A DNA stretch of 64,000 nt from a virus: positions 1-64,000 of IMG/VR virus record IMGVR_UViG_3300009152_000039; one strand, 5' to 3'. Under the pieces are notes generated by a model. That model saw only the letters and a list, made by a program, of their open reading frames with translations, was not told where the DNA came from and searched no databases. Shown piece after piece: positions 11,874 through 14,062 of this stretch. The translations under genes were made by a program, and so were the position numbers. Position 1 is the stretch's first letter. Each line of letters begins with the position of its first letter.

Positions 11874-12833
11874 ATGGCACATTTAGTCGAAACTATGGCA
11901 TATGCAGGCGAAACCCCGTGGCACGGTCTTGGTAAATTAGTACCAGGAGACCTTTCTCCTGCTCAAATGTTGGACGCAGCTGGCTTAAACTGGTCGGTTG
12001 ACAAGGTTCCAGCGTACGCTGAGATCCTTGGTAAGCAAGTTTACACTGGCAAAGACGCGTTAGTACGCTCTACTGACGGTAAAATCCTGGATGTAGTGTC
12101 GCAAGACTGGAATCCTTTGCAGAATGAAGAAGCATTTGAGTTCTTTAACGACTTTGTATGCTCCGGTAACATGGAGATGCACACTGCTGGATCGCTAAAA
12201 AACGGTCAAATTGTGTGGGCTTTGGCTAAAGTTAAGGAGAGTTTTGATGTTTTCAACGGTGATCAGGTGGATTCCTACCTATTGTTTACTCTCCCTCACA
12301 AGTTTGGCCAGTCTATTGACGTTCGCTTCACTCCAATACGTGTGGTCTGCAACAACACTCTCACTCTATCACTTAGCAGTAAGCAAGATAACATGGTGAA
12401 GGTGTCGCATCGCAAGATGTTTGACGGTGATCAGGTGAAGCAGACTCTTGGTATTGCGTCCGAGAAGCTTGCAAAGTACAAGGAAATGGCTAAGTTCTTG
12501 GGTTCCAAGAAGTTCAAGCAGGAATCCGTTACAGAGTACTTCAACCGTATCTTCCCTGTTAACGCATACGGTCGCTCTAAGAACGAAGAAACTGCTATCA
12601 AAAAGGAGTTGTCGAAGTCTGCAACTCTGGCTCTGGAGGCTTTGCATGAGCAACCTGGTGCTAAGTTTGCTGAGGGCTCCTGGTGGCAAGCGTTTAACGC
12701 TGTTACATTCCTGACCGACCATGTTATTGGTCGTACTCAAGAAGGTCGTTTGACATCTGCTTGGTACGGTCCTAACAAAGCACTTAAGGTGAAGGCTCTT
12801 GAGACTGCTGTTGAGATGGCTGAAGCAGCGTGA
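11874..12833 (+). CDS. DUF932 / phage-plasmid-like protein (319 aa)
   Basis: ATG 11874 with TTTTTGGAG upstream. The sequence has the family hallmarks: MAYAGETPWHGLGK near the start, LVRSTDGKILDVVS..WNPLQNEEAFEFF, and RFTPIRVVCNNTLTLSL in the middle. Length (319) is usual for the TIGR03299/DUF932 family, found in phages and plasmids with unknown biochemical role. It stands alone between its own promoter and a hairpin terminator, so it is a single-gene unit expressed early. Confidence 0.85.
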   Translation: MAHLVETMAYAGETPWHGLGKLVPGDLSPAQMLDAAGLNWSVDKVPAYAEILGKQVYTGKDALVRSTDGKILDVVSQDWNPLQNEEAFEFFNDFVCSGNMEMHTAGSLKNGQIVWALAKVKESFDVFNGDQVDSYLLFTLPHKFGQSIDVRFTPIRVVCNNTLTLSLSSKQDNMVKVSHRKMFDGDQVKQTLGIASEKLAKYKEMAKFLGSKKFKQESVTEYFNRIFPVNAYGRSKNEETAIKKELSKSATLALEALHEQPGAKFAEGSWWQAFNAVTFLTDHVIGRTQEGRLTSAWYGPNKALKVKALETAVEMAEAA

Positions 12834-12839
12834 AAATGC

Positions 12840-12872
12840 GGGGATAACGCCACTAAAATGGTGTTATTCCCC
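12840..12872 (+). terminator. Stem-loop, probable terminator
   Basis: GGGGATAACGCCA (12840-12852), loop CTAAAA, TGGTGTTATTCCCC (12859-12872): a 13-bp stem with one G-U and one bulge. The tail (ATTGTTATTT) is only moderately T-rich. Confidence 0.6.
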
Positions 12873-12873
12873 A

Positions 12874-12903
12874 TTGTTATTTCTAGGTATTCGGATAGAT
12901 AAT
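12874..12903 (+). promoter_or_regulatory. Possible sigma70-type promoter of pqqA-ssrA
   Basis: TTGTTA (12874-12879), 18-nt spacer, GATAAT (12898-12903). The -10 matches that of the early promoters; the -35 is degenerate. Position is right for a transcript starting about 12910 and running through pqqA into the tmRNA. Confidence 0.45.
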
Positions 12904-12949
12904 AACAGTGGCACAATTGTGTCATTATTTAATTAACTGGGAGAATAAA

Positions 12950-13024
12950 ATGGCTTGGACTACACCTTCTGCACAAGATATGCGTTTTGGTTTCGAAATC
13001 ACTATGTATATTGCAAATCGTTAA
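12950..13024 (+). CDS. pqqA: PqqA-like PQQ precursor peptide (24 aa)
   Basis: ATG 12950, with GGGAG (12939-12943) 6 nt upstream. The 24-residue product reads MAWTTPSAQDMRFGFEITMY then IANR. It matches the PqqA family in length and sequence: start MxWTxP, D-[LM]-R-x-G-F-E-[VI]-T-M-Y and a final short tail ending in Arg. Glu16 and Tyr20 in E-x3-Y spacing are the residues crosslinked by PqqE to build pyrroloquinoline quinone. Host PqqBCDE would be needed. The form is beta/gammaproteobacterial rather than the rhizobial type. It is followed after about 10 nt by the tmRNA acceptor piece. Confidence 0.85.
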   Translation: MAWTTPSAQDMRFGFEITMYIANR

Positions 13025-13031
13025 TAAATAG

Positions 13032-13105
13032 TTGTAAAGAATTGTTGTAATCCCTTCAAAGCGAAGGCATGTTGGACGAGGGTTCGATTCCCTCCATCTC
13101 CACCA
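13032..13105 (+). ncRNA. ssrA: tmRNA, acceptor (3') piece of a permuted ssrA gene
   Basis: Ends with a tRNA-like T arm (GAGGG-TTCGATT-CCCTC, 13078-13094), acceptor strand CATCTCC (13095-13101), discriminator A and encoded CCA (13103-13105). The acceptor strand pairs with GGGGATG at 13202-13208, giving seven pairs including the G3-U wobble that marks alanyl-tRNA identity. CATGTT (13068-13073) can pair with AGCGTG (13222-13227) as helix P2. CCTTC (13053-13057) can pair with GAAGG either locally or in the coding piece. The 5' end is approximate. Confidence 0.88.
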
Positions 13106-13201
13106 GAAACATATTACGGCTGAGGTCTAGAGATAACTTCATACTACGCCGTAACAGGATATAGAAGCAGACCTAAACCTGTTGTATAGTGTGTTTCTGA
13201 T
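13106..13201 (+). ncRNA. Intervening segment of permuted tmRNA precursor, with possible kissing hairpins
   Basis: The 96-nt spacer between the CCA end and the coding-piece 5' end. It is closed by CAGAAACA (13104-13111) / TGTTTCTG (13192-13199), 8 perfect pairs. Inside are hairpin 1 TTACGGC (13114-13120) / GCCGTAA (13148-13154) and hairpin 2 CAGG (13155-13158) / CCTG (13178-13181). Loop 1 AGGTCT (13123-13128) is exactly complementary to loop 2 AGACCT (13169-13174). It should be removed during processing. Confidence 0.7.
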
Positions 13202-13368
13202 GGGGATGACCAGGTTTCGACAGCGTGAGATAGTAGAGAAGGCAACACGGTAGGCGATGACCGTAAATCAAGCAAAACAAGTAACCGCAAATGATAGCGA
13301 GTACGCTCTAGCAGCTTAAGCTCTAGATGGGGTTTCGGTGGCTGTCCTTATAACTCAATCAGCCACCA
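13202..13368 (+). ncRNA. ssrA: tmRNA, coding (5') piece with proteolysis tag
   Basis: Begins GGGGATGACCAGGTTTCGAC, the canonical tmRNA 5' half with D-loop-like GGTTTCGAC. The resume codon GCA (13287-13289) opens a tag read ANDSEYALAA with stop TAA (13317-13319); AND...ALAA is the classic ClpXP/ClpAP degron. The stop lies within an AGCTTAAGCT palindrome, as in helix P5. A GGTGGCTG (13337-13344) / CAGCCACC (13360-13367) stem closes the piece. The rescue RNA tags peptides from stalled ribosomes. The 3' end is approximate. Confidence 0.92.
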
Positions 13369-13377
13369 ATTAATAAT

Positions 13378-13385
13378 TATAAATA
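13378..13385 (+). promoter_or_regulatory. T4-type late promoter (TATAAATA)
   Basis: Perfect TATAAATA 10 nt after the tmRNA terminal hairpin and upstream of the cell-wall hydrolase, leaving a leader of about 140 nt. Confidence 0.78.
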
Positions 13386-13531
13386 AATTCATCTACAATA
13401 GGATCCATTGGTCCAATACAGCATGAGCAGTTCTTGATAGGAATGACATCGTGACTATTAACAATCTAGTAACTGAGAGTAGTACCTCTGTTCCGCAACA
13501 AAATTCAATAAATTACAAAGAGGAAGTTAAC

Positions 13532-14062
13532 ATGAAAAAGATAGTGTTAATCACACTTCTTGGCCTATGTTCACTTGTATTTGCTAGCAATCAGCTTGAC
13601 GAGATGGTAGAGTACCAACTCAATGCTCAAGAGCAATTAGTTTCTGTACCTGATAAGCAAATAGAATGTTTAGCCAAGAATATGTACTTCGAAGCAAGGA
13701 ATGAACCAGATGCTGGCATTAGAGCAGTGGGATTCGTTACGATGAATCGTGTTCAAGATCCACAGTTTCCAAAATCAATTTGTGAAGTTGTTTACCAACG
13801 TACTGGACCCACTTGTCAGTTTTCCTGGGTGTGCATATTTGGTAGGAACCCGCAAATTACAAACCTAATCCAGTTTCAACGGATTAAGAATATGGCTCGT
13901 GAGATTGCTGCTGCCCATCCAGAAAATAAGATATATGATCCAAGCAAAGGATCGTTATTCTTTCATGCAGCATACATTAGTCCAGGTTGGAAACTAAGTA
14001 AAAAAATTCGCATTGGCCAACATATATTTTATTCCAGGAAGAAGCATGATCCAAGATCTTAA
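13532..14062 (+). CDS. SleB-type cell-wall hydrolase with signal peptide (176 aa)
   Basis: Start chosen at ATG 13532 (AGAGG upstream) because MKKIVLITLLGLCSLVFASN is a clean signal peptide; a GTG at 13451 is in frame but would bury it. The catalytic domain follows: IECLAKNMYFEARNE (Glu in the YFEAR motif), AVGFVTMNRVQDPQFP, SICEVVYQR and CQFSWVC, all typical of SleB/CwlJ hydrolases. Likely the endolysin, exported by Sec. It heads the gp33-gp59-gp32 block behind a late promoter; no holin is evident next to it. Confidence 0.85.
   Translation: MKKIVLITLLGLCSLVFASNQLDEMVEYQLNAQEQLVSVPDKQIECLAKNMYFEARNEPDAGIRAVGFVTMNRVQDPQFPKSICEVVYQRTGPTCQFSWVCIFGRNPQITNLIQFQRIKNMAREIAAAHPENKIYDPSKGSLFFHAAYISPGWKLSKKIRIGQHIFYSRKKHDPRS

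Follow-up and report, generated by a model that had tools for sequence, protein, structure and literature searches.

The window, i.e. the whole 64,000-nt stretch of DNA analysed here, corresponds to positions 1 to 64,000 of a virus record of 72,574 bp (IMG/VR). It encodes a T4-type terminase (TerL), which shares about 55% identity with the terminases of cyanophages, Pelagibacter phages and Melnitz and 80% with its counterpart in record G049 (locus L214). The neighbouring genes also include T4-type gp59, gp32, a DUF932 gene and a cell-wall hydrolase gene. The last two flank a compact group made of pqqA and of ssrA, the gene of a permuted tmRNA:

11874-12833: DUF932 gene, preceding the terminator-like hairpin
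12840-12871, + strand: intrinsic-terminator-like hairpin after the DUF932 gene, 13-pair stem
12874-12903, + strand: putative promoter TTGTTA-N18-GATAAT, at chance level by itself, relatives having a comparable -10 position
12907-12926, + strand: 5'-UTR hairpin AGTGGCACAATTGTGTCATT, from folding and from relatives' hairpins at the same place
12939-12943, + strand: Shine-Dalgarno sequence GGGAG
12950-13024, + strand: pqqA, 24 aa (ATG 12950, TAA 13024), from profile matches
13043-13105, + strand: tmRNA acceptor piece (T arm, 3' strand of the acceptor stem, CCA), from RF04321
13106-13197, + strand: tmRNA inter-piece spacer, a 92-nt structured RNA element also found directly 3' of phage tRNA-Glu CCA
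13202-13319, + strand: tmRNA coding piece with the tag ANDSEYALAA at 13287-13319, from ARAGORN and RF04321
13338-13367, + strand: tmRNA 3' hairpin GGTGGCTG/CAGCCACC without T run
13378-13385, + strand: TATAAATA, T4-late-promoter-like, before the cell-wall hydrolase gene, window count not above chance
13451-14062: cell-wall hydrolase gene, downstream of the tmRNA

The pqqA gene and its upstream region

The first-pass annotation had described a complete 24-aa PqqA with Glu16 and Tyr20 and a GGGAG site, all of which are present. It had overlooked the terminator-like hairpin, the hairpin in the 5' UTR and the unusual character of the tmRNA spacer. The peptide encoded by 12950-13024 (MAWTTPSAQDMRFGFEITMYIANR) is intact and scores well over the cut-off of both profiles: 39.4 bits against PF08042 (Pfam, cut-off 21.1) and 38.4 bits against TIGR02107 (NCBIfam, cut-off 20). 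The two residues that become PQQ (E-x3-Y) are in the right places. A GTG start at 12908, giving 38 aa, was dropped, the ATG with its Shine-Dalgarno sequence being preferred. The nearest bacterial PqqA (88% identical) belong to Burkholderiales and other Betaproteobacteria and not specifically to methylotrophs. The family of G081 was tried as host group and encodes pqqA in 10 of 61 genomes, which did not pinpoint the host.

Although the promoter proposed by the same annotation is present, a scan found three promoter-like sites where 2.6 were expected, which places it at chance level when taken alone. The position of its -10 box, 46 nt before the ATG, resembles that of good -10 boxes in several relatives, where a strong promoter or -10 box is located 37-44 nt before the pqqA ATG (L022, L025, L027, L029, L037 and L213). 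No general sigma-70 enrichment was found before viral pqqA genes (mean p 0.54). Many relatives also have a 5'-UTR hairpin in the same place, with a different sequence (mean z about -1).

Another motif, the [AC]ATGATT box, is found 60-120 nt upstream of 56 of the 149 distinct viral pqqA genes (shuffle mean 3.2, maximum 9) and is common to T4-like phages and small methylophages. The window holds no exact copy of it. In some copies the sequence is ATGATTTTCAT, which is ATGAAAATCAT in reverse complement; the latter occurs 14 times in 74 betaproteobacterial pqqA upstream regions. The viral box is possibly a site of a host PQQ regulator. As the conserved box TTAATGATTWTC, it lies about 85 nt before the pqqA of unrelated phages, for instance at L001:3938, L027:2915 and L063:2913.

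Downstream of pqqA, the permuted tmRNA matches RF04321 at 13043-13319 (+ strand) with 147.7 bits (gathering threshold 47), and its acceptor piece precedes its coding piece, as membership of this family demands. ARAGORN calls it tmRNA*, with the tag ANDSEYALAA. The acceptor stem is built across both pieces (GGGGATG with CATCTCC), G3-U70 and ACCA are kept and the tag ends in ALAA. The gap of about 10 nt first given between the two genes is a fair estimate: the first base modelled by RF04321 lies 18 nt after the pqqA stop, on the same strand, and the nominal ARAGORN start (13013) implies a 12-nt overlap with pqqA.

Distribution and conservation of phage pqqA

Searching with the peptide (tblastn) revealed pqqA in cultured methylophages, namely Melnitz (four isolates), P19250A, Venkman, MEP301, MEP401 and MEP402, and in an uncultured spring phage. 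In the records examined (Melnitz, Venkman, P19250A, MEP301 and MEP401/402), the gene either lacks an annotation or has an antisense 'hypothetical protein' annotated over it. These methylophage genes lie at MZ577097 76134-76205, KX815270 28085-28150, MT375522 9977-10042, MW452941 3316-3381 and OP830907 43050-43115. PQQ is not mentioned in the MEP301 and MEP401/402 papers, and the Melnitz paper names it solely as a medium component (PMC9004378). Moreover, a pattern scan of IMG/VR yielded at least 597 viral stretches that encode confirmed PqqA relatives. This 75-bp precursor gene, found in these and in cultured phages of OM43/LD28 methylotrophs, has been missed by annotation pipelines. The matches labelled 'Acinetobacter phage MD-2021a' were rejected as bacterial-looking contigs with a whole pqqBCDE operon. 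CAKLQF020000010 and CAKLQH020000055, labelled Acinetobacter phage, carry this full operon together with other bacterial genes and are probably bacterial contigs.

With a pN/pS of 0.20 for 159 distinct viral sequences, phage pqqA evolves under purifying selection. Substitution of Glu16 or Tyr20 in homologues would have spoken against the first-pass proposal; both residues are present in all 159 sequences, with the full motif invariant, the invariance of Glu16 being partly built in because this residue belonged to the search patterns. Tyr20, which was absent from the IMG/VR scan pattern, is present in all 80 loci kept among the matches listed. No PqqE scored above the cut-off in the 44 phage records tested, several of which are fragments. 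Hence, these phages probably supply the substrate and use the enzymes of their host.

As a host-type metabolic gene under selection in many phages, pqqA can be classed as an auxiliary metabolic gene on sequence grounds. The T4-like phage would infect a PQQ-making, probably betaproteobacterial host, and its pqqA would add PqqA peptide to the host supply. Host PqqD/PqqE would cross-link the phage peptide at Glu16-Tyr20, PqqB/C would finish PQQ and PQQ-dependent dehydrogenases would stay supplied during infection. Raising pqqAB leads to more PQQ in Acetobacter pasteurianus, and a passage of the same article cites the overexpression of pqqA as a single gene as raising PQQ in Gluconobacter (PMC7936290). 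A methylotroph with three orphan pqqA genes has been described (PMC9851590). It may also be that the host already makes enough PqqA.

An auxiliary role of pqqA in viruses had been proposed before; the gene is common yet overlooked in phages. It was reported once, in 2020, in the Lake Baikal methylotroph virus VP_266 (PMC7678222), where, as in the window, a phage encodes a PQQ precursor peptide, proposed there as an auxiliary metabolic gene. Unlike in the window, this pqqA comes with a viral methanol dehydrogenase, and the paper includes neither a mention of tmRNA nor a survey of other phages. The spread of pqqA suggests that PQQ supply is a widespread phage target, and Melnitz, Venkman, P19250A and MEP301 offer phage-host systems in which this can be tested.

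Pairing of pqqA with ssrA

A screen for tmRNA T arms downstream of pqqA showed that the pair recurs, in the order seen in the window, in three related phage lineages: L210, which is nearly identical to the window, L211/L212 and L213/L214. A lack of such recurrence would also have spoken against the first-pass proposal. About 470 bp of L214 hold an 11/12 promoter, pqqA, ssrA and a strong terminator, between the same DUF932 gene (before) and the same hydrolase gene (after) as in the window, where an inserted rubrerythrin gene and an inserted GDSL-like gene separate ssrA from the hydrolase gene in L214. The rubrerythrin-family gene beside this pair (Pfam match) lies at L214:5403-5840. The order is ssrA-pqqA-rubrerythrin in L022, where the rubrerythrin was judged by its similar start only, versus pqqA-ssrA-rubrerythrin in L214, as if pqqA and ssrA had swapped positions. 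Searching phage records with the DNA of the cassette gave only short matches, which were located in the acceptor region and covered about 14% of the query.

More phages have the reverse order, with ssrA followed by pqqA on one strand. Among the loci found through pqqA alone, 29 phage records also have a permuted tmRNA. The two genes lie within 640 nt of each other in 12 of them, always on the same strand with ssrA upstream, and at least 1.8 kb apart in the other 17. Since some records are close relatives, the independent cases of pairing are fewer, roughly ten. On contigs of at least 25 kb, three pairs within 500 nt were observed against 0.26 expected (P about 0.002). Melnitz, a Methylophilales phage, is T4-like as the window is and has a two-piece ssrA, at which a glutamine riboswitch was reported (PMC9004378), plus the unreported pqqA. 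In contrast to the window, about 30 kb separate its pqqA from ssrA, and a tRNA-Leu gene follows about 10 nt after the end of pqqA. No description of the pqqA-ssrA linkage was found in the literature searched, a scope that left out most subscription papers and all bioRxiv preprints. The two components, viral pqqA (PMC7678222) and the permuted tmRNA of phages, were both known.

The reading that we consider probable is that, in this lineage, an auxiliary gene for a PQQ precursor shares a short transcript with ssrA, their neighbourhood reflecting clustering and no mechanistic link. This transcript would start about 40 nt before pqqA, and the tmRNA would be cut out of it downstream. A shared transcript is the simplest reading because a terminator-like hairpin lies upstream and there is no space for a second promoter; it is also favoured because promoter and terminator bracket the pair in L214. 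Small genes and RNA genes would cluster because they are expressed together. Alternatively, the two genes could be neighbours merely through the gathering of small genes and RNA genes, each being transcribed and used separately. The many records in which they are far apart, their variable order, the 12/12 promoter between ssrA and pqqA in L022, L027 and L029 and the location of other viral pqqA genes near tRNA genes agree with separate use. However, the window and L214 leave no space for an ssrA promoter, unless it lies inside pqqA, and in L214 the promoter precedes and the terminator follows the pair, which makes separate use unlikely here.

A coupling of the translation of the precursor to the ribosome-rescue RNA, as initially suggested, is not supported, given the reversed order in most phages, the strong promoter between ssrA and pqqA in several of these and the distance between the genes in many phages. 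Nor do the variable gene order and the frequent separation of the two genes support the idea that cofactor supply is deliberately coupled to ribosome rescue. A functional link, in which the tmRNA acts on the translation of pqqA or on its peptide, or in which a deliberate co-regulation joins PQQ supply to ribosome rescue, would agree with the recurrence of same-strand adjacency, in either order, in about ten lineages. Nevertheless, it is very unlikely given that the order is not conserved, that the pair is not adjacent in most phages with pqqA and that the small methylophages with pqqA had no tmRNA near this gene. It is just as improbable that the phage peptide serves as a decoy, tying up PqqD/PqqE or blocking the PQQ synthesis of the host in some other way: the phages do carry the precursor only, without PqqE, but an invariant motif with both cross-linked residues would not be required of a decoy. 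Judging from the arrangement of the genes, the pairing suggests joint expression and not a novel mechanism of coupling, and the pqqA-ssrA unit would be an example of auxiliary genes packed into RNA-gene transcripts.

The spacer between the tmRNA pieces

The spacer (13106-13197) is 95.7% identical to a stand-alone element located behind a tRNA-Glu gene in L028 (857-948). A 30-base probe from it retrieved ten IMG/VR contigs, one being L210, the near-twin of the window, and the other nine carrying the 92-nt element directly 3' of the CCA of a tRNA-Glu. Compensatory changes are seen in its outer stem, which includes pairs with CCA bases. The two inner hairpins and a loop-loop helix fit perfectly and never vary; therefore, they are consistent with the structure and do not prove it. 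The element folds better than shuffled sequences (z -3.5) and matches no Rfam family. Weak matches of the covariance model R1 were distrusted, being below 40 bits and often on both strands.

Like theta ribozymes (PMC10879173), this element is a structured RNA placed directly at the 3' ends of phage tRNAs. It nevertheless differs from a theta (HDV-like) ribozyme, with no Rfam match and, on inspection, another pairing topology: an outer stem plus two kissing-loop hairpins versus a nested double pseudoknot. A broader proposal, in which one early transcript yields both the PQQ precursor and the two-piece tmRNA and the spacer is a portable kissing-loop RNA that serves or catalyses the 3'-end maturation of tRNA-like phage RNAs, is tentative and, as a whole, rather doubtful. 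Besides the window, the loci that carry the element are L028:857-948, L309 and L311-L317.
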